DNA of 64,000 bases from an uncultured Eubacteriales bacterium. GTDB lineage: Bacteria > Bacillota > Clostridia > Saccharofermentanales > UBA5734. Of the stretch, positions 17,909-28,604 are shown one piece after another. How positions within the stretch are numbered: position 1 is the stretch's first letter; every line of letters starts with the position of its first letter. The notes beneath the pieces were generated by a model. The model did not search any database and was not told the origin of the DNA. It saw only the letters and a program-made list of their open reading frames with translations. The stretch spans positions 124,001-188,000 of the forward strand of contig CAILLO010000047.1 in NCBI GenBank assembly GCA_903835065.1, given 5' to 3'. A program made the translations under genes and the position numbers.

Positions 17909-17960
17909 TCGAGTGCTCCTTCTTCCGCTTTGCGCGCGGAGGGGGTCGTGGGTCAAGTGA

Positions 17961-17966
17961 TATAAT
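17961..17966 (+). promoter_or_regulatory. Predicted -10 box upstream of AAA ATPase gene
   Basis: Perfect TATAAT, 24 bases before the ATG at 17991, in the short divergent gap after the M28-like gene. No convincing -35 is seen at the proper distance. It would drive the ATPase/DUF4276 pair and probably hemW. Confidence 0.45.
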
Positions 17967-17990: not shown

Positions 17991-19226
17991 ATGCTGATCG
18001 GCCTGCGCGCGAAGAATTTCGGGATTCTCGGCGACGTCACCGTCGGCGCTGTGGACGACGTCCTCGTCGATCGCGGTCCGGAGGCCGGACTGACGCCGGT
18101 CACGGCGTTGATCGGCCGCAACAGCACGGGCAAGAGCACCGTCCTCGACGCTCTCTCCTTCCTGGCCGACTGCCTTCGCGACGGCGTCTCCTCGGCGTCT
18201 TCAGCCGGCCGCCGCGGCGGTTTCACCGAACTGCGGACGTTCGGCGCCTGCGGTCCCATGGAACTCGAAGTCGCGCTCGATGCGCCGGACCGCTCCTGCG
18301 TCCTCGACTACACGCTCCGCCTGGCCTGTGACGGGCACGGCCGCCCGGCGGTGGAATCCGAGCTTGTCCGGAGACTCGTCACCGACGGCGAGGGGAAGCG
18401 CTCCTTCCAGGATGTCCTGCGCCTCGAGAACGGCCAGGGCCGGATCATGGTCTCCGGGTCGTCCGCTCCGGACGCCTCCGCGCTGCTCCCGGCCGGCGTG
18501 GCCGACCTCCGCAAACCAGGGCTCTCCGCCTACGGCACGCTGACCGGACAACCCCAGCTCCGCGCCCTGCTCGGGACGATGACCCGCTGGTACTTCTACC
18601 GCTTCGACGCCGAGGCGGCCCGCACGGCGCATGCCGGCGGCGGGCACCGCCACGTCAGTCCCACGGGTGACAACCTCGCGAACGTGGTGCAGTATCTCGA
18701 AGAGGAAAGCCCGCATGAACTGCAGGTCCTGCTGCAGCGGATCTCCGCCCGGATGCCCGGACTCGGGCTCGTGACGACGTCGCGGTCTCCGGACGGCAAG
18801 GTCCTGCTCCGATTCAACGGAACGGACGGCGCGCATCCGGTGTACCTCGACCGACTGTCCGACGGGACCCTGAAACTGTTCACCTATCTGCTGCTGATGG
18901 AGGACCCGACGCCGAGGCCGCTGGTCTGCCTCGAGGAGCCGGAATCCGGACTCTACCACGACATGGTCGAGCCCCTCGCGGCCGAGTTCCGGCGCCACGC
19001 GACCGGAACCCGGGACGGAGAAGAGGGCGCGCAGGTCCTCTTCACGACGCATCACCCGTACCTGCTCGATTCGCTGCGCCCGGAGGAGGTCTGGCTTCTG
19101 GAGCGCGGTCCGGACGGGCTCGCTTCGGCCCGCCGCGCGGGTGACGACCCGGTCGTCGCTGGCATGACCGCGCAGGGCATCGGTCTTGCCGCGCTCTGGT
19201 ACGGCAGCTATCTGGACAGGGACTAG
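17991..19226 (+). CDS. AAA ATPase (AAA_21/SMC-like), defence-type
   Basis: 411-residue ATPase of the RecF/SMC-like AAA_21 kind. Walker A is GRNSTGKST (residues 42-50). An ABC-like signature LSDGTLKLF comes ahead of Walker B VCLEEPESG (around residues 312-319), and the switch His lies in LFTTHHPYLLDSL. There is no coiled-coil arm of note. A strong GGGGAGGA precedes the ATG. The next gene, a DUF4276 protein, starts 3 bases after the stop. This two-gene layout recalls ATPase plus TOPRIM pairs in phage defence (for example AbiL type), but no role is proven by the sequence. Confidence 0.85.
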   Translation: MLIGLRAKNFGILGDVTVGAVDDVLVDRGPEAGLTPVTALIGRNSTGKSTVLDALSFLADCLRDGVSSASSAGRRGGFTELRTFGACGPMELEVALDAPDRSCVLDYTLRLACDGHGRPAVESELVRRLVTDGEGKRSFQDVLRLENGQGRIMVSGSSAPDASALLPAGVADLRKPGLSAYGTLTGQPQLRALLGTMTRWYFYRFDAEAARTAHAGGGHRHVSPTGDNLANVVQYLEEESPHELQVLLQRISARMPGLGLVTTSRSPDGKVLLRFNGTDGAHPVYLDRLSDGTLKLFTYLLLMEDPTPRPLVCLEEPESGLYHDMVEPLAAEFRRHATGTRDGEEGAQVLFTTHHPYLLDSLRPEEVWLLERGPDGLASARRAGDDPVVAGMTAQGIGLAALWYGSYLDRD

Positions 19227-19229
19227 CGC

Positions 19230-19883
19230 ATGCACCTCGAAGTCCTGGTCGAGGACCGATCCGGGGGGACCGTCGTGGCGGCGCTCCTGGATCGTCTTCT
19301 GCCGCCCGGCCGCCACTCGTTCGCGATCCGGCCCCACCGCGGCAAGGGGGAATTCCCCAGGAACCCGGACGGGCGTCCGGACCGGATGGCCGCGGGACTG
19401 CTCGACCTGTTGCCCGCGAAACTCCGCGCGTATGCCGCCGTGCTCGACCCCGCCGACAACCTCGTCGTCGTCCTGATGGACTCCGACGAGGAGGACCCGG
19501 CCGTCCTGCGCGACGCCCTTTCTGCCCTGTGCGCGCGCTGCGCCCCCGGGATGCCCCTCGTCGTCGCCCTGTCCGTCGAGGAGGTCGAGGCCTGGCTGCT
19601 GGGAGACCCCGAAGCGCTGCTCGCCGCCTATCCCGACGCGGACCGCGCAGGGCTCGCCGCCTACCTGCAGGACAGCGTCTGCGGCACGTGGGAATGGATG
19701 GCCCGGGTGCTGCTCCGGGACGAAGCCCGCACCTTGATCCGGGAGGGCTACCCGCAGGTCGGCATCCGGAAGCATGAATGGTCCGACGCGATCTCGCCGC
19801 ACCTCGTGCCCTCCCGCAACCGTTCTCCGAGTTTCGTCCGCTTCGCGACGGATCTGCTCCGGGCCATCGGAGACGCGCCATGA
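19230..19883 (+). CDS. DUF4276 family protein, TOPRIM-like
   Basis: 217 residues matching DUF4276. It starts with a beta strand ending in VED (E8, D9). A second strand ends in LMDSDEED (D84, D86), followed by SVEEVEAWLLGDPEAL and the C-terminal RNRSPSFVRF motif. An early Glu and a later D-x-D is the metal-binding layout of TOPRIM nucleases; calling it TOPRIM-like is inference. It is the partner of the upstream AAA ATPase (3-base gap). Its stop overlaps the hemW start as ATGA, an unusual tie to a housekeeping gene. Confidence 0.82.
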   Translation: MHLEVLVEDRSGGTVVAALLDRLLPPGRHSFAIRPHRGKGEFPRNPDGRPDRMAAGLLDLLPAKLRAYAAVLDPADNLVVVLMDSDEEDPAVLRDALSALCARCAPGMPLVVALSVEEVEAWLLGDPEALLAAYPDADRAGLAAYLQDSVCGTWEWMARVLLRDEARTLIREGYPQVGIRKHEWSDAISPHLVPSRNRSPSFVRFATDLLRAIGDAP

Positions 19884-21031
19884 CGCAGGCCGCCCCGACT
19901 TCGGCCTACGTCCACGTGCCCTTCTGCCAGCAGCGCTGCGCCTACTGCGACTTCAACACCTACGCAGGCCTGCTGCACCTCGCCGGCCCCTATTTCGACG
20001 CCGTCCGCGCGGAGATCGCCGCCGAGCGCGCCCGCGCCGGACAGGCGGGCGACATGCCCGCACTCGAGACGGTCTATTTCGGAGGAGGGACGCCGTCGCT
20101 CGTGCCCGAGGCGCAACTCGCCTCGACGATGCGGGCGCTGTCCGACGCCTTCGGATTCGCGCCGGGCCTCGAGGCGACGCTCGAAGTCAATCCCGGAACC
20201 CTGCGCCCGGGCGCCGCGGAGTCCTGGCGGGCCTGCGGCTTCAACCGGGCCAGCGTCGGAGTCCAGGCGCTCCGGGACCCGCTGCTCGCCGCGCTCGACC
20301 GGATCCACACCGCCGCGGAAGCGGAGGAGGCGTTCGCGACACTGCGGAGCGCCGGCTTCGAGAACCTCTCCGCCGATCTCATGCTGGGTCTGCCGGGCCA
20401 GACGGAGGCGGACGTCGTCGACGCCGTCGACCGGGTGGTCTCCTGCGGCGCAGGGCACGTCTCCTTCTATTCGCTGACGGTCGAGCCCGGCACGCCGTTC
20501 GCCCTGCGCTATCCGGACGGCCGGGGCCTGCCCGGCGACGATGAGGAACGGCGGCTCTACGATGCGGCGCTCGGCGAGCTGGCCCGGAACGGGCTGTCCC
20601 AGTACGAGATCAGCAGCGCGGCCAGGCCGGGGCTCCGATGCCGGCACAATGTCGTGTATTGGGAGGCCCGTCCCTACTATGGATTCGGCGCAGGCGCCTT
20701 CGCGTATGCGGCGGGCGTGCGCCGCGGCAACGTCGTGGGCGTTCCGGCCTACATCGAGGCGATCGGCGCCGAAGGCGCGGCCGAGGACAGCCGGGAGACC
20801 GTCGACCGGGCAGGGGAGATGGCCGAGGTCATGATCCTCGGGCTCCGCATGAACGACGGTGTCTCCCGCGCGGAATTCCAGCGGCGGTTCGGCGGGACGC
20901 TCGACGCCGCCTTCGGCGCCGCGGTCCGCCCGCTCGTCGCCCAGGGCCTCCTCGAGGACGAGGACGACCGCATCCGGCCGACCCGGAAGGGCATCGACTT
21001 CTCGAACGTCGTCTCCCGCGCCTTCCTGTAG
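19880..21031 (+). CDS. hemW: Radical SAM heme chaperone HemW
   Basis: 383-residue coproporphyrinogen-oxidase-like radical SAM protein; in the family HemW carries heme to target proteins. The 4Fe-4S/SAM motif is C16-x3-C20-x2-C23 (FCQQRCAYCDF), matching HemW rather than HemN. GGGTPS follows (in YFGGGTPSLV), and the C-terminal HemN_C domain is present. The start at 19880 overlaps the DUF4276 stop; an upstream in-frame ATG at 19778 would put a basic non-homologous leader inside the previous gene. In many Bacillota hemW sits beside lepA and hrcA, so this location is different. Confidence 0.92.
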   Translation: MTQAAPTSAYVHVPFCQQRCAYCDFNTYAGLLHLAGPYFDAVRAEIAAERARAGQAGDMPALETVYFGGGTPSLVPEAQLASTMRALSDAFGFAPGLEATLEVNPGTLRPGAAESWRACGFNRASVGVQALRDPLLAALDRIHTAAEAEEAFATLRSAGFENLSADLMLGLPGQTEADVVDAVDRVVSCGAGHVSFYSLTVEPGTPFALRYPDGRGLPGDDEERRLYDAALGELARNGLSQYEISSAARPGLRCRHNVVYWEARPYYGFGAGAFAYAAGVRRGNVVGVPAYIEAIGAEGAAEDSRETVDRAGEMAEVMILGLRMNDGVSRAEFQRRFGGTLDAAFGAAVRPLVAQGLLEDEDDRIRPTRKGIDFSNVVSRAFL

Positions 21032-21085
21032 ACCCAAGGCTCTTCGGCGTCCAGACGGCCTCGCACGAGGTTCGCATTCCGCGCT

Positions 21086-21095
21086 GTGGTACACT
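21086..21095 (+). promoter_or_regulatory. Possible extended -10 promoter of addB
   Basis: TG-G-TACACT with the TG at 21087-21088 and the hexamer at 21090-21095, in the 122-base gap between hemW and addB. There is no -35 at correct spacing. Weak evidence. Confidence 0.3.
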
Positions 21096-21153
21096 GGAGA
21101 ATAGCCGGAGAGGCCCTCGGCGCAAGGTGCGCGGGGCCGCCGGAAGGGGGCGC

Positions 21154-24100
21154 ATGGGACTTCGGATCCTCCACGGCGGCATCGGCAGCGGACGAACCCG
21201 GAAGTGCCTCGAGGAGATCGAGGCGCTCGGCCGCGCATATCCGCAGCGGCGCGCGATGCTGATCGTCCCGGATCCCCTGAAGCTCGACACCGAGGCCTTC
21301 CTGATGGGCGCGACCGGGCGGAACGGTCTGATGATGGCCGAGGTCCTGAGCTTCCCGCGACTCGCGCAGCGGGCGCTGGGAGAAACGGGGGGACTCGCGG
21401 TCCGCTACGCGGATGCGTCGGGGCGCAGCATGGCGGTGCACCGCGTCCTGAAAGCGCGGCGTGGCGAACTGTCCGTCTTCGGTCCGATGGCCGACCGCCC
21501 CGGATTCGTCCCGCAGATCGAGGCCGTCCTGTCGGAGTTCCGGCGGTACGGCGTCCGACCCGAAGACCTCGAGCGGACGCCAGGGGCCGGCGCGGAGGAC
21601 CTTTCCCCGGTCTCCTTCCGCAACAAGGCGAACGACTTCGCGAAGATCCTTCGGGATTATGAATGCGCGCTCGAGCGCCTCGGCCTCCTCGACCCGGGCG
21701 GCGACCTCGATCGTCTCGCGGAGATCCTCGGCCGCGTCTCGGCGGGGGAGAGCTGGCCCTACGACCGCCTCTCCTGGCTCCGGTCGACTTCGGTCTGGAT
21801 CGACGGATTCGGCGAGCGGCGCGACTTCACGCCGCAGGAGACGCGCGTGATCGAGGCGCTGACGGACGTGTGCGAGGAAGTCACGGTGACCCTGTGCACG
21901 GACCTGGTACCCGCGGACGCAGCGGCGGCCGAGGACGGGCCCGACGCGCTCGCGATCGGTCGCAGGACGGCGTATCGGCTGAATCGCAGGCTCGCGGCGC
22001 GACTGGTCCCCGGAGGGATCCTCCCGCTGGCGGTTCCGGGGCGTGGAAGGCACCCGGAGCTGCTCCACCTCGGGCACTCCCTGGAAAGGGGCCTGACGGT
22101 GCCGTATGAAGGGCCCGCCGACGCGGTCGTCGCCTACCGTGCGCTCGACGTGTACGAAGAGACGGCCTGGGTGGCGGGGGAGATCCGCCGGCTCGTCTTC
22201 CAGGAGGGGCTGCGGTTCAAGGACGTCGCCGTCGCGGCCTGCTCCTTCGAGGCCTATGCACCGCTCCTCGAGTCCGCCTTCGACACCTACGGGATCTTCT
22301 CCTTCCTCGACCGGGAGGTGCGCCTGTCGGGCTCCGCGCTTCCGCGCTTCGTCCTGACCTTCCTCGGGATCGCCGACGCGTCCTGGACGCTCGAATCCGT
22401 GATGGCCTGCCTGCGGACGGGGCTCGCGGATATCTCTCCCGACGAGGCCGACCGGTTGGAGAACTTCTTCCTCAAGCGCGGCATCCGCGGCAGATCGAGG
22501 ATCTTCGACGACCGGCGCTATGCCGACCGGTTCGATGCGGACCCGACGGCCGCCGCCGAGGATGAACCCGGAGACGGGCCCGCTTCGACCGCCACCGAGG
22601 ACGGCGCGACGGTCCTCCGGATCCGCGACCGGTCGTTGTCCCCCCTCCGCGACGCCCTCGACGCCGTCCGTGCCGCGAAGACCTGCGGCGCACGCTGCGC
22701 GGCGCTCGCGACCTTCCTCGACGGCTACGGGATGCACGACCGCGTCTACCGTCTGGCGAGGGACCTGCGCGGGAAGGGCGCCTCGGACGGCGCGATGCGG
22801 CTCGTCAAGTCCTGGAACGCCCTCTGCTCGGTCCTGATCCAGATGGTGGACGTGGCGGGAGAGGAGGAGATCCCGCTCGAGGACTTCATCCCGCTCCTCG
22901 CCGCCGGCATCGACGCCTGCCGCGCAGGCACGATCCCCGCTTCGCCCGACGCCGTGCTCGCCGGACCTCCGGACCGGGTGATCGCCCGCCGCCCGGCCGT
23001 CCTGTTCGTTATTGGCGCGACGTCCGACGCGCTTCCCCAGAAGGGCGTATCGGAAGGACTGCTGTCGGCCGCCGACCGGGACCGGCTGGTGCACGAGGGG
23101 GGACTGGACCTGCCGAGCGGCGTCGCCGACAAGCCGTTCGAGGACGCGTTCCGGGAATACTCGCTGCTGTCCCTGCCGACCGAGCGCCTCTACGTGGGCT
23201 TCGCCGAGACCGACAGGAAGGGCGCGAACGTCGACCCCTCCACGACCTGGACCCGCGTCGTCTCCCTGCTGCCGGGCTGCCGACGGGTGACCGTCGGGCC
23301 GATGCGCCGGGCGGAGCCGGACGACCCGCGCCGGCTCGCCGTGAAGCGTTCCGCGACATCGTCTCCCGTCGACGCGGCGGAGGGGTCCCTCGCCGGACCC
23401 GCACCGACCCGCGACGTCCGGCTCCCGCCCGGACTGGTCGCCGGCGCCTTCGGCTCGGTGCGCGGGATGAGCGTGTCCCAGCTCGAGACGTACGCCGCCT
23501 GCCCCTACGCCTACTTCTGCAAGTACGTCCTGCGGCTCGCTCCCCGGGAGGTCTGGAAGCCGGAAGCCGCGAACACCGGCAGTCTGGCGCACGGCGTCGT
23601 CGAACAGGCGATGGGGGAGCTCGCACGGTCGATTGATGCCGCGATTCGGGACGGCAGGAATCCGGACGACGAGATCCAGGCCTTCGTCGACTCCGATCTC
23701 GAGCGGAAGGTCGACGGGCTGATCCGCTCGACGGCTCTCCGCGACCGCCTCGGCCTGTTTCTCGACGAGGGGATCCGGACGTCCGCGGGGCGCAAGGTCC
23801 GCGGCGTGGCGTCCGCCTCCCTGCGCGCGGCGGCCCGCCAGCTGCTGGGGCAGCTGCTGCGGCCTGCCCTGCAGGAATGGGCGTTCGGACCCGAGGATTC
23901 CAACCCACTGGTCGTCGAACTGGCGGACGGGTCCCGCGTGCATTTCCGCGGCCGCGTCGACCGCGTCGACGCGAGGTCGGAAGGAGACCGCGAGTACTAC
24001 CGGATCGTGGACTACAAGACCGGTGACAAGAAGGTGGACTACCAGGCCCTTTACGCCGGGCTGGCCTTCCAGCTGCCCGCGTACCTGGCGGCCTACCGCA

Positions 24101-24531
24101 ACGGAGTTCCGTCGCGGGTGCCCGTGGATGCCGCCTACTTCCACCTGGGCGTCCCCCTGGACCGGGCCGAATGCGCGGCGCAGGCGCCCGCCCTGGCCTC
24201 GCTGCACGACCGGGAATCGGGCTACTACAAGCTGCGCGCGCTCGACCTGGCGCCGGACGCCCTCGAACTCGCCGTCTCCCATTCCCGCGCCCTCCTGCGC
24301 GAGACCTGCGGCGACCTCTTCGGGGGGAGGTTCGACGTGCGTCCTCTGAAGGCCGGGTCGGGTTCGCCGTGCGAATGGTGCGATTACCGCTCCGTCTGCC
24401 GGAAGTCGGGTCCGACCGATTGTCCGTCGGCGAAGCCGCTTCCGTCCGCCTCGGCGGCGGGGACGACGAAGAAGAGGGATCGCTACGTCTCCGCGCTCGC
24501 GAAGGACCGGGACGGGAGGTCGGGAACGTGA
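21154..24531 (+). CDS. addB: ATP-dependent helicase/nuclease subunit B
   Basis: 1125-residue AddB, partner of AddA in RecBCD-like double-strand-break end resection. The C-terminal PD-(D/E)XK nuclease is visible as IVDYKTG (D953, K955) followed by FQLPAYL. The 4Fe-4S ligands fit C783 (AACPYAYFC) and C1073, C1076, C1082 (CEWCDYRSVC), with the same spacing as Bacillus AddB. The N-terminal ATP site reads GGIGSGRT: the usual Walker A Lys is Arg14. GGAAGGGGG precedes the ATG at 21154; upstream in-frame sequence overlaps hemW and is not homologous. The stop overlaps the addA start as GTGA. Confidence 0.93.
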   Translation: MGLRILHGGIGSGRTRKCLEEIEALGRAYPQRRAMLIVPDPLKLDTEAFLMGATGRNGLMMAEVLSFPRLAQRALGETGGLAVRYADASGRSMAVHRVLKARRGELSVFGPMADRPGFVPQIEAVLSEFRRYGVRPEDLERTPGAGAEDLSPVSFRNKANDFAKILRDYECALERLGLLDPGGDLDRLAEILGRVSAGESWPYDRLSWLRSTSVWIDGFGERRDFTPQETRVIEALTDVCEEVTVTLCTDLVPADAAAAEDGPDALAIGRRTAYRLNRRLAARLVPGGILPLAVPGRGRHPELLHLGHSLERGLTVPYEGPADAVVAYRALDVYEETAWVAGEIRRLVFQEGLRFKDVAVAACSFEAYAPLLESAFDTYGIFSFLDREVRLSGSALPRFVLTFLGIADASWTLESVMACLRTGLADISPDEADRLENFFLKRGIRGRSRIFDDRRYADRFDADPTAAAEDEPGDGPASTATEDGATVLRIRDRSLSPLRDALDAVRAAKTCGARCAALATFLDGYGMHDRVYRLARDLRGKGASDGAMRLVKSWNALCSVLIQMVDVAGEEEIPLEDFIPLLAAGIDACRAGTIPASPDAVLAGPPDRVIARRPAVLFVIGATSDALPQKGVSEGLLSAADRDRLVHEGGLDLPSGVADKPFEDAFREYSLLSLPTERLYVGFAETDRKGANVDPSTTWTRVVSLLPGCRRVTVGPMRRAEPDDPRRLAVKRSATSSPVDAAEGSLAGPAPTRDVRLPPGLVAGAFGSVRGMSVSQLETYAACPYAYFCKYVLRLAPREVWKPEAANTGSLAHGVVEQAMGELARSIDAAIRDGRNPDDEIQAFVDSDLERKVDGLIRSTALRDRLGLFLDEGIRTSAGRKVRGVASASLRAAARQLLGQLLRPALQEWAFGPEDSNPLVVELADGSRVHFRGRVDRVDARSEGDREYYRIVDYKTGDKKVDYQALYAGLAFQLPAYLAAYRNGVPSRVPVDAAYFHLGVPLDRAECAAQAPALASLHDRESGYYKLRALDLAPDALELAVSHSRALLRETCGDLFGGRFDVRPLKAGSGSPCEWCDYRSVCRKSGPTDCPSAKPLPSASAAGTTKKRDRYVSALAKDRDGRSGT

Positions 24532-27500
24532 CGGCGAACGGGAGCTTCCGGCCGACACCGCAGCAGGAGGTCCTGCTGCAGGCGGGCGTCTGCGATCTGC
24601 TCGTCTCGGCCGCGGCCGGATCGGGAAAGACGCAGGTGATGACCGATCGGATCGTGAAGCGGATCGCCGAAGGCGCGCTGGATATCCGCCAGGTGCTGGT
24701 GATGACCTTCACGGACGCGGCCGCCGCGAACATGCGGCGCAAGATCGTCGAGAAGCTCCGGAGCGCAGCGGACGGGGCCTCGAAGGAGGACGCGCGGCGA
24801 CTGCGCCGTCAGGCGGGTCTGCTGCCGCACGCCTCGATCTCCACGATCCACGGGTTCTGTCTCGAAGTCCTGAGAAGCGCCTCCTATCAGGCGGTCGACG
24901 GGAGCGGGAAGCCGCTCCTCGAACCCGGCTTCCGGGTGGCCGACGCGGCCGAGTCCGAGATCCTTCGGCTCGAGGCGCTGGACCGCGTGTTCGAGCGACG
25001 CTATCTCGACGCCGAGCCGACCCCCGGGTCGTCCGCGCCCGACGGAGCGGCGGAATTCCTCGACCTCGTCGACGCCTACGGGAACCACCGCGGGGACGAG
25101 CAGGTCCGCTCGCTGGCGCTGACCCTCCACACGTTCCTCCGCAGCATGCCCGACTACCGCGGGTGGGTCGAGGAGCGGCTGGCGCACCTCAGGAGGGACG
25201 TCGCCCGCTTCGGTGCGTCGGAGGCCGCCCGGCTGCTTCTCATCGGGCTGAAGGACCTCCTCGACCGCGCGGACGAGGTCCTTCCCTCCCTGCTGGATTC
25301 GCTCGATGAGGATTGGACCTTCGTCGCGGACGCCGAGAAGGACAGGGCATGGAAGGAGACCTTCCGGTCCACGCTGCGGGAGCTCCAGGATCTCCACGGA
25401 CTTCTCTCCGGCGAGGGACCGGCGGCGGGGACGGACCTTTCCGACCTCTGGGATGCGGTGACCGCTGCGGGACGCCGGATTCCGATCGACGGCCTGCCCC
25501 GGACCCCGAAGAACCCTTCTCCCGAGCGCATCGCCTTCGTCTCGGCCTTCCGGAACCGCCTCTCCGAACCGGTGCACGCCCTCACGGGCCGCTTCGGAGG
25601 CGACGCGTACCGAAGGGAATTCACCGCGCCGACGCGCTACCTGTTCCACGACACGGCCGAAGCGATCGGGAGCGGGATCGCCCCGATGGTGCCGTTGTGC
25701 GAGGCCCTCTTCCGGATCGTCCTGGAACTCGACGCGCTGTACGACGACTTGAAGCGGAAGGCTTCGGTGATCGACTTCAGCGACATCGAGCACCTCGCCC
25801 TCGCCGCACTTGAGCGGGAGGGGGCCGAAGGCGCCTTCCGCACCCGGTTCCAGGAGATCTACGTCGACGAATACCAGGACACGAGCGGCATCCAGGAGGC
25901 GATCGTCGAACGGCTCGAGCGCGGCAACCGCTTCCTCGTCGGCGACGTGAAGCAGAGCATCTACCGATTCCGTCACGCTCGTCCGGAGATCTTCCAGGAC
26001 AAGGCCGACCGATATGCCAGGGACGTCCCTCCCGGACGGGAAGCCGAGGCGGGCACGAACGGCGTGCTGCGGGAACTGAACCGCAACTTCCGCAGCGTCC
26101 CGGCGGTCCTCGACGCCGCGAACCTCGTCTTCGAGCGGATCATGAGCCGGGAGGCCGGCGAAGTCGTGTACGACGCGACGCAGGCCCTCGTGCCCGACCG
26201 GAAGGACCCGCCGACGGGGCGCCTGCCCGTCGAGCTGGTGATCGTCGATGCGCGGGAAGCCGAAACCGCCCCGCTTTCCGTTCAGGTCGGCGCACCGCTC
26301 CCCGGAGACGAAGGGGAATCGGTCGAGGCGAAGGAGGACGCCCCCGCCCTTCCGGCGGGCGACCCCGACCCCGAGGCGCTGGATCCGCAGGAAGCGGGCC
26401 AGCAGGAACTGGAGGCGCTCTGGATCGCCGGTCGGATCCGCTCGCTGGCCGAGGCCGCCCGAGCGGAGGGGCGGGACAAGGTCTACGAAGGCATCGCGGT
26501 TCTCTCGCGGACGCGGTCGGTCCTGTCGGTGGTGAGCCAGGCCCTCAAGGACCTGGGGATCCCCGTCGAGGAGGACCCGGCCGGTGAATTCCTCGCGAGT
26601 CCGGAACTGCGCACGATGGAAGCCCTCGTCCACCTCCTCGACAACCCTCGGCAGGATATCCCGCTCGCCGCGACGATGCAGTCGATGCTGTACCCGGAGC
26701 CCTTCTCCGAAGAGGAGCTGCTGCGCGTCCGCCTGCACCTCCGCAAGCGGGGCGACAGGGACGCCTTCTTCCACGAAGCGGCCGTCGCCTTCACCGAGTC
26801 CGGCACGCCCGAGGACCTGCGCGTCCGGGTCGTCCGATTCCTCGACTGGGTCCGCGATCTCCGCGAACGGGCCGTGCACACCGGACTCGATGCGCTGGTC
26901 GGGCACGTCTACCTCTCGACCGGGTACCTGGAACGCGTCTCCCGCCTGCCGGACGGCACGGAGAGCGTCGCGGACCTCCGCATGTTCCACGAATGGGCCG
27001 GTTCCTTCGAATCGACGCGGATGCGCGGCCTTTATGGTTTCGCGCGCTACATCGAACGCATGCGCGAGAGGGGCGGCGGAGACGCCGCGCGAGGGGCGCG
27101 TCCGGGCGGAGCGGACGCCGTTCGCCTCGCGACCTTCCACGGGAGCAAGGGTCTTGAGTTCCCCGTGGTCTTCCTCGCGGGTCTCGCCCATGCCTTCCGC
27201 CTGACCGAGAAGCAGGACCGCGCAATCGTATCGGAAGCCCTCGGCATCGGGCCCGACGTCGTGGACCTCGCGGCCCGGACGGTCTATCCCTCGCACCTCA
27301 AGCTCGCCGTGTGGGAGCATTCCCGCCGCGCGATGCTCGCGGAGGAGATGCGGCTTCTCTATGTCGCGATGACCCGCGCCATGGACCGACTGTTCCTCGT
27401 CGCGAGCATGAAATCGAAGCCGGATGCTCCGGACGCCCGACTGGCGCGGATCGTCGAGGAGGCCGCGGCCCGTCCGGGCGAACCGGTACCGCCCTATCGC

Positions 27501-28604
27501 GTCCTTTCGGCGAGGAGCCACCTCGAGTGGCTGCTGAATGCCTTCGCGTCCGAATTCCCCCGGGAGGCGTCCGCTCTGATCGGGATCGACGCGCCGGACG
27601 TCCCCGACGGCACGGCGCGCATCGGATCCGTCGTTCCGGGGACCTGGACCGCCCGCCGGATCTTCCCCTCGGACGTGATGGCCGGCTCGGCGACCGCACC
27701 GCCCACGTCGACGGAACCCGCCGCGGCGCCTGCCCCCTCCGGTCAGCCCTTGCTCCGGCCGATGCCGGCGACCTATCGGTTCGACGGCTCCGCGAGAGCG
27801 CCGGCCAAGATCTCGGTCAGCGAACTGAAGCGCCGTATGGCGCCCGAGCCCGAAGCCGGCTCCGAGGAGTCGGACGGAGAGGGCGCGGCGAAGCCGTCGA
27901 CGCCGACGTACGACGAACCCGCGGACGAGGACGGACGCCGTCTGCGCGTCCGGTTCGGCGCGCTGAAGAGCGTCGACCTCGAGATGAAGGACCTTCCTCT
28001 GACCGCTCCGCCGTCGCTTCGGGACGGCCCGACCGCTTCCCGTGCGCTGCCGCCCAACGAAATCGGAACGGCGGTCCACTCGGTGCTCCGCTACCTCGAC
28101 CTCGCTTCGGCCGCCGCCGACCCCACGCCGGACGGGATCGTCCGGCAGATCGGGCGCATGGCGGAACACCGCATGCTGTCCGTCGACGAGGCGGCCGCGG
28201 CGCGCGGTTTCGCCGGGCCGCTCGCCGCCTTCGCCGCGAGCGGTCTCGCCCGGAGGATCCTGGCGGCCGGTCCGCAGGTCTTACGCGAGATCCCCTTCAC
28301 CCTGTCCGTCCCCTTCCCGCCGCTCTACGCGGACGTTCCCGACGCCGGGACCTTCGCCCCGGAGGACCGCATGATGGTTCAGGGCATCATCGACCTCTGG
28401 TTCGTGGAGAACGGATACGGCGTCCTGGTCGACTACAAGACGGACCGCATCGACGGCGACGACGAGTCCGTCCAGGAGACGCTGCGCCGCCGCTATGCCT
28501 CGCAGATGGACTACTACGCGCAGGCCGTGGAGTCCTCGACCGGCGTCCGCGTCGCCGAGCGCGTCCTGTGGCTGGTACGGCAGGGGAGGGCGTTCCGGAT
28601 ATGA
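24528..28604 (+). CDS. addA: ATP-dependent helicase/nuclease subunit A
   Basis: 1358-residue UvrD-like helicase with a C-terminal nuclease. It starts at GTG overlapping the addB stop, with GGGAGG upstream, placing the Q motif (RPTPQQ) and Walker A AAAGSGKT (residues 28-35) at the usual distance. Motif II is VDEYQD. Later helicase motifs include TFHGSKGLEFPVV and LLYVAMTRA. The nuclease motif LVDYKTDRI (D1302, K1304) lies near the end. A stretch between about residues 570 and 630 is acidic and Pro-rich and probably disordered. The stop overlaps mnmM as ATGA. Length is slightly above the usual 1230-1250 residues. Confidence 0.95.
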   Translation: MTANGSFRPTPQQEVLLQAGVCDLLVSAAAGSGKTQVMTDRIVKRIAEGALDIRQVLVMTFTDAAAANMRRKIVEKLRSAADGASKEDARRLRRQAGLLPHASISTIHGFCLEVLRSASYQAVDGSGKPLLEPGFRVADAAESEILRLEALDRVFERRYLDAEPTPGSSAPDGAAEFLDLVDAYGNHRGDEQVRSLALTLHTFLRSMPDYRGWVEERLAHLRRDVARFGASEAARLLLIGLKDLLDRADEVLPSLLDSLDEDWTFVADAEKDRAWKETFRSTLRELQDLHGLLSGEGPAAGTDLSDLWDAVTAAGRRIPIDGLPRTPKNPSPERIAFVSAFRNRLSEPVHALTGRFGGDAYRREFTAPTRYLFHDTAEAIGSGIAPMVPLCEALFRIVLELDALYDDLKRKASVIDFSDIEHLALAALEREGAEGAFRTRFQEIYVDEYQDTSGIQEAIVERLERGNRFLVGDVKQSIYRFRHARPEIFQDKADRYARDVPPGREAEAGTNGVLRELNRNFRSVPAVLDAANLVFERIMSREAGEVVYDATQALVPDRKDPPTGRLPVELVIVDAREAETAPLSVQVGAPLPGDEGESVEAKEDAPALPAGDPDPEALDPQEAGQQELEALWIAGRIRSLAEAARAEGRDKVYEGIAVLSRTRSVLSVVSQALKDLGIPVEEDPAGEFLASPELRTMEALVHLLDNPRQDIPLAATMQSMLYPEPFSEEELLRVRLHLRKRGDRDAFFHEAAVAFTESGTPEDLRVRVVRFLDWVRDLRERAVHTGLDALVGHVYLSTGYLERVSRLPDGTESVADLRMFHEWAGSFESTRMRGLYGFARYIERMRERGGGDAARGARPGGADAVRLATFHGSKGLEFPVVFLAGLAHAFRLTEKQDRAIVSEALGIGPDVVDLAARTVYPSHLKLAVWEHSRRAMLAEEMRLLYVAMTRAMDRLFLVASMKSKPDAPDARLARIVEEAAARPGEPVPPYRVLSARSHLEWLLNAFASEFPREASALIGIDAPDVPDGTARIGSVVPGTWTARRIFPSDVMAGSATAPPTSTEPAAAPAPSGQPLLRPMPATYRFDGSARAPAKISVSELKRRMAPEPEAGSEESDGEGAAKPSTPTYDEPADEDGRRLRVRFGALKSVDLEMKDLPLTAPPSLRDGPTASRALPPNEIGTAVHSVLRYLDLASAAADPTPDGIVRQIGRMAEHRMLSVDEAAAARGFAGPLAAFAASGLARRILAAGPQVLREIPFTLSVPFPPLYADVPDAGTFAPEDRMMVQGIIDLWFVENGYGVLVDYKTDRIDGDDESVQETLRRRYASQMDYYAQAVESSTGVRVAERVLWLVRQGRAFRI

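Follow-up and report, generated by a model that had tools for sequence, protein, structure and literature searches.

A HEC-01-type ATPase and predicted Toprim nuclease encoded upstream of hemW: a suspected mobile defence module that may have become a resident of one bacterial order

Within the stretch of DNA analysed here (64,000 nucleotides; the window), a gene pair for an ABC-type ATPase and a predicted Toprim nuclease lies directly upstream of hemW. Beyond the window's order, these proteins are mobile and patchy in occurrence; within it, they are core-like, confined to a single site and inherited together with hemW. Patchy, mobile occurrence is the usual mark by which suspected defence modules are spotted; this pattern, or location in defence islands, was found for the relatives outside the order and not within it, which suggests a suspected immune system that turned into a resident cell function. 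We consider it fairly probable that a mobile, split OLD/PARIS-like module was captured once upstream of hemW and was retained, in most lineages as a Toprim nuclease with an ATP-binding regulator that probably does not hydrolyse ATP. A more specific proposal, put forward tentatively, is that the pair was domesticated once, giving a resident regulator that is translated together with hemW and has no part in defence; in most lineages, an ABC protein that still binds ATP without hydrolysing it would control a fully conserved Toprim nuclease.

The first-pass annotation, made from the sequence of the window, had reported an ATPase gene and a second open reading frame three bases apart, and both are found exactly there (17991..19226, + strand, 411 aa; 19230..19883, + strand, 217 aa; stop-to-start gap of 3 nt). 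A feature absent from that annotation is the ATGA overlap between the stop codon of the second gene and the start codon of hemW (19880..19883, + strand), read from the sequence and matched by comparable small overlaps across the order. By this overlap, the ATPase gene, the DUF4276-like gene and hemW (19880..21031, + strand; radical SAM, HemN_C) form one tight three-gene unit. An extended -10 promoter-like element, TGATATAAT (17958..17966, + strand), was read by eye from the sequence upstream of the ATPase gene; a scan with the sigma-70 consensus -35/-10 matched no promoter in the ATPase leader, so that the putative promoter role of this element draws on the conserved leader as its one line of support. 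The leader of the window's ATPase gene aligns to the hemW leader of a pair-less genome of the same genus (G001) with a score of 56, versus a maximum of 26 in 300 shuffles; the two leaders are thus homologous, so that the pair has a likely promoter on one side and hemW on the other. In G001 the pair is cleanly absent and hemW follows directly behind the same leader; its hemW (L087, 4531-4540) starts with MHL, the same first residues as the DUF4276-like protein (MHLEVL), possibly a deletion scar.

The neighbours of the pair in the window comprise genes for NAD synthase, a GATase/PRTase protein (PurF-like), MarR, an M28 peptidase, HemW and AddBA, and no defence genes were seen among them. Downstream of hemW, both the window (19880-28604) and G001 carry addB-addA, whereas most of the order has hrcA-grpE-dnaK-dnaJ instead.

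The first gene is predicted to encode a HEC-01A-type ABC/AAA_21 ATPase, supported by the AAA_21 (E=1e-31) and PADLOC profiles and by a structural model (pLDDT 93) whose closest folds are SMC/Rad50 heads and PtuA. The AAA_21-type assignment made earlier, with an LSDG signature, a Walker B motif LEEPE and an HHP switch, is confirmed in all its parts, the switch reading TTHHP. The motifs comprise Walker A, GRNSTGKS (residues 42-49; 18114..18137, + strand), the ABC signature, LSDGT (residues 289-293; 18855..18869, + strand), and Walker B, LEEPE (residues 314-318; 18930..18944, + strand), in which E316 (18936-18938) holds the position of the catalytic glutamate.

The second gene is predicted to encode a HEC-01B/DUF4276-like Toprim nuclease, based on profiles, a fold model and conserved residues. 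Its match to Pfam DUF4276 (PF14103; E=2.5e-5) scores 25 bits, below the gathering cut-off of 30.2, so that the name DUF4276 denotes a sub-threshold match on a single sequence; plasmid relatives of the protein carry the DUF4276 annotation. An AlphaFold2 model (41 relatives) reached a pLDDT of 95.5. A Foldseek search of the PDB with this model returned nothing significant (E 0.12 or worse), and the DUF4276 profile found no relevant match among the sequences of solved structures. The top matches in VIA-align were the C-terminal regions of OLD nucleases (Z 10.0-8.6; the highest 10.0, 9.1 and 8.9), the best being 6nk8 (Z 10.0 over 169 residues; model 1-214 on 393-594), and PARIS AriB aligned with Z 7.9 over 167 residues; folds that are evidently unrelated reached a Z of 7.1 at most. 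Since Foldseek alone gave no significant match, the OLD likeness is carried by the VIA-align Z of 8.6-10.

The earlier reading of a TOPRIM-like layout, E8 with D84-x-D86, thus agrees with the predicted fold, for which OLD and AriB rank at the top, and with conservation. The Toprim glutamate E8 (19251..19253, + strand; counterpart of OLD E400 by the range of the fold alignment), the Toprim DxD motif D84-x-D86 (19479..19487, + strand), the proposed metal B ligands E117-E118-x-E120 (19578..19589, + strand; to be compared, putatively, with OLD T506-x-E508) and K181 (19770..19772, + strand; the putative counterpart of OLD K562) are each invariant in 62 of 62 proteins of the order. The active site of Burkholderia OLD comprises E400, D455xD457, T506xE508 and K562 (PMC6755086); judged by alignment range and motif order, E8, D84xD86, E118xE120 and K181 would correspond to this two-metal site.

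Searches against PADLOC profiles matched the ATPase to HEC-01A (PDLC04182; 377 bits, residues 3-410) and its partner to HEC-01B (PDLC04205; 215 bits, residues 1-211). The pair is therefore known as a candidate system, HEC-01, and not as AbiL, and the earlier suggestion that it might be uncharacterised does not stand in so far as it means a pair listed nowhere; a literature search for DUF4276, PF14103 and HEC-01 found no relevant paper in the collection covered. The proposed resemblance to AbiL was not upheld either, and membership in AbiL was rejected: the AbiLi profile scored 73 bits, far below HEC-01A, and AbiLii gave no partner match. Membership in PARIS by profile was also rejected, AriB showing neither a PADLOC profile match nor a sequence match among PDB chains; of the AriA profiles, PDLC02980 scored 103 bits (304 positions, resembling the generic AAA_21 model) and PDLC02979 just 42 bits.

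The pair is present in 137 of 188 genomes of the order (83 of the 106 of good quality), nearly always as one copy. At least 108 carriers belong to family f2, among the matches listed, and at most seven f2 genomes would be without the pair; two genomes of this family (G485, G525) each contain two full-length DUF4276 copies on separate contigs, through duplication or contamination. When the class was sampled, a relative at E 1e-15 was found in 13 of 391 genomes, all 13 in the window's order, and a sample of the phylum added eight scattered genomes outside the order with a relative at E 1e-8. The co-occurrence of the two families holds throughout, DUF4276-like and ATPase genes being adjacent wherever both were found, in and outside the order.

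Linkage to hemW is equally regular: hemW adjoins the pair in every pair-bearing locus with enough flank for the check, and the trio ATPase-Toprim-hemW is constant while the upstream neighbours vary between families. One f3 genome has hemW on the opposite strand from the pair, still adjacent (L036, 6417-8341). Many loci of the order continue with hrcA-grpE-dnaK-dnaJ-prmA, names that were assigned from size, sequence and gene order. Heat-shock control of the pair via CIRCE/HrcA was rejected, since CIRCE, where found, is close to hrcA, beyond hemW as seen from the pair, which places the pair outside that heat-shock unit; no CIRCE was found in the window.

Twenty hemW loci were from genomes with no DUF4276 match; in 18 of these, hemW has other flanking genes and the pair is cleanly absent, and the remaining two are uninformative, with the ATPase at the contig end (G011) or the contig ending at hemW (G048). 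Much of the window's own family is without the pair (g2, g7, g8, g9 and G001), which hence is dispensable there.

Throughout the order, the locus has descended vertically. Compared with outside homologues, the DUF4276-like proteins of the order form one clade (support 98/95), as do the ATPases (100/100), and the pairwise distances of the two pair proteins correlate with those of hemW (0.865 and 0.882; 0 of 2000 permutations). Within the order, mean identity is higher for the DUF4276-like protein (46%) than for HemW (39%), and dN/dS in computable close pairs falls in the same low range for both (0.06-0.23 and 0.13-0.24, respectively). The window and G003 are basal in both pair trees, yet the hemW tree groups them with g5; this conflict might be due to long-branch effects or to an in-situ replacement. 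Presence and absence of the pair are polymorphic between related genomes at one site, as would be the case if the site upstream of hemW were an integration hotspot that had received HEC-01 pairs independently many times. We regard such a history as very improbable, as the order members form a single clade in both trees and co-vary with hemW, and as no other cargo was recognised at the hemW site of pair-less genomes.

The ATPases of the order differ from those outside it in their motifs. The signature SDGT is kept in two of 61 order ATPases (those of the window and of L045) versus 27 of 27 distinct outside ATPases, and the catalytic glutamate E316 in nine of 61 versus 27 of 27 (Walker-B EE); Fisher tests of this contrast (P 3e-15 and 1e-20) are descriptive and ignore relatedness. 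The states of residue 316 were taken from the aligned motif readout and those of residue 315 from a tally: E316 is replaced within the order by T, S, A, N, Q, Y, H or G, while residue 315, the first acidic residue of Walker B, is D or E in every order ATPase. Walker A is retained in all of them (pattern G-x4-GK[ST]) despite the loss of signature and glutamate. Parsimony on the ATPase tree, with the first sequence set, required at least four changes for the motif loss. The ATPases remain under purifying selection, those without E316 included (dN/dS 0.07-0.23 in computable close pairs). Thus, the ATPase motifs are intact in every outside copy examined and were repeatedly lost in the resident lineage, and the nuclease site is untouched. 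Judged from these motifs, ATP hydrolysis may have been lost in most of the order. The window's copy keeps both SDGT and E316, and a non-hydrolysing reading is therefore not directly applicable to it.

The pair is rare beyond the order, where every locus found to have both genes again has them side by side. It lies between T4SS genes and mobF on the conjugative plasmid pGLE121P3, between antiterminator and lysis genes in a Rahnella plasmid prophage, beside toxin-antitoxin and phosphorothioation genes on Synechocystis pSYSM, and inside a type I restriction-modification operon on Meiothermus pMtWR-220 (hsdS-DUF4433-macro-ATPase-DUF4276-hsdR; L147, 1607-9644). The DUF4433 and macro-domain companions in the latter operon are DarT-like and DarG-like, respectively. 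Chromosomal copies outside the order mostly have ordinary neighbours; an enrichment in defence islands was rejected for these copies, with few PADLOC matches among 129 neighbours (raw count), and the matches that were checked include likely housekeeping look-alikes (UvrD/PcrA, a Rad50-like protein). In one locus outside the order (L131, 9914-14531), a UvrD/PcrA helicase gene and another large gene, possibly ligA, follow directly after the pair; the DUF4276 frame of this locus looks broken.

Elsewhere the pair is mobile and probably serves as an anti-phage module, and the earlier description of the window's pair as resembling a defence module holds in part: the context is defence-like outside the order, but the window's pair is in no defence island and its locus is vertical. 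That HEC-01 might still act as an anti-phage abortive-infection system in the order, carried stably, with its vertical inheritance due to a favourable chromosomal site rather than to a changed role, is a possibility of some weight, though we doubt it. It would accord with the plasmid, prophage and restriction-modification settings of the outside copies, with the PADLOC entries for both proteins, with the canonical motifs of the window's copy and with the occurrence of clean, lineage-specific losses. It is harder to reconcile with a nearly always single copy in 108 genomes of family f2, with pair trees and distances that follow hemW, with a DUF4276-like protein more conserved than HemW, and with a window that has no defence neighbours.

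A housekeeping role in nucleic-acid processing or repair that was never tied to defence, e.g. as an RNase M5-type RNA maturation nuclease or as a repair pair resembling RecF/RecN, appears unlikely. The core-like presence in f2, the position in the hemW operon, the strong purifying selection and an ATPase fold near SMC/Rad50/RecN heads would all suit such a role, but the homologues elsewhere are mobile cargo, and the pair is dispensable in g2, g8, g9 and g20. A search for RNase M5 (TIGR00334) found none in the 58 relatives G000-G057, the window's genome included, and this absence, too, would suit such a role. The enzyme is missing with or without the pair, so that there is no complementary pattern, and replacement of RNase M5 by the pair was rejected.

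For the reading that we prefer, capture and retention, the following course is proposed. The ancestor of the order would have acquired the pair once, upstream of hemW, and passed it on vertically as ATPase-Toprim-hemW, with losses. In PARIS, AriA keeps the AriB nuclease sequestered until a trigger arrives (PMC11455837, PMC12409363); by analogy, the Toprim nuclease is probably under the control of the ATP-binding ABC protein, which would assemble with it and hold or license it. A signal would then free or activate the nuclease, and cutting of nucleic acid would slow growth or translation; by analogy with AriB, tRNA or another structured RNA is a more likely target than DNA. With the catalytic glutamate and the signature gone in most of the order, control would no longer depend on ATP turnover; that the hydrolysis motifs were lost while purifying selection continued suggests that ATP binding or protein contact may serve as the switch there. 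The window's copy, with its hydrolysis motifs, may still cycle ATP.

The motif loss in the order offers a natural experiment on the control of OLD/PARIS-type nucleases, i.e. on whether ATP turnover is needed. Furthermore, PADLOC calls of HEC-01 in the window's order may not mean acquired immunity.

Among known systems, HEC-01 is the closest, as the window's pair matches its A and B profiles near full length and in the same adjacent order; PADLOC lists a candidate defence system, whereas in the window's order the pair belongs to the hemW operon, is passed on vertically and has widely lost its ATPase motifs. PARIS (AriA-AriB, class 4 split OLD) shares separate, adjacent genes for an ABC ATPase and a Toprim nuclease and an AriB-like fold, but the window's Toprim protein belongs to another subfamily, with no AriB sequence-profile match, and the pair is linked to hemW. 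Class 2 Bp/Xcc OLD gives the best structural match, with agreement in the positions of the glutamate, the DxD motif, the helical-domain glutamate and the lysine; OLD is one fused polypeptide, whereas the window's module consists of two genes. AbiL shares an ATPase with a second protein, and a weak AbiLi profile match. Cran1 (Sulfolobales OLD clade U11) occurs in one order only, has a tree that follows the species, and is reported to have apparently no part in antiviral defence (PMC12796447). It thus sets an example of an OLD protein with a role other than antiviral defence that is limited to a single order and inherited vertically, and the window's pair resembles it in being OLD-type, order-restricted and vertically inherited. 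Cran1 is archaeal and fused, and its ATPase is active and important to its effect, whereas the pair in the window's order is bacterial and split, with its motifs mostly lost; the pair is a bacterial counterpart to Cran1 for asking whether such modules take resident roles.
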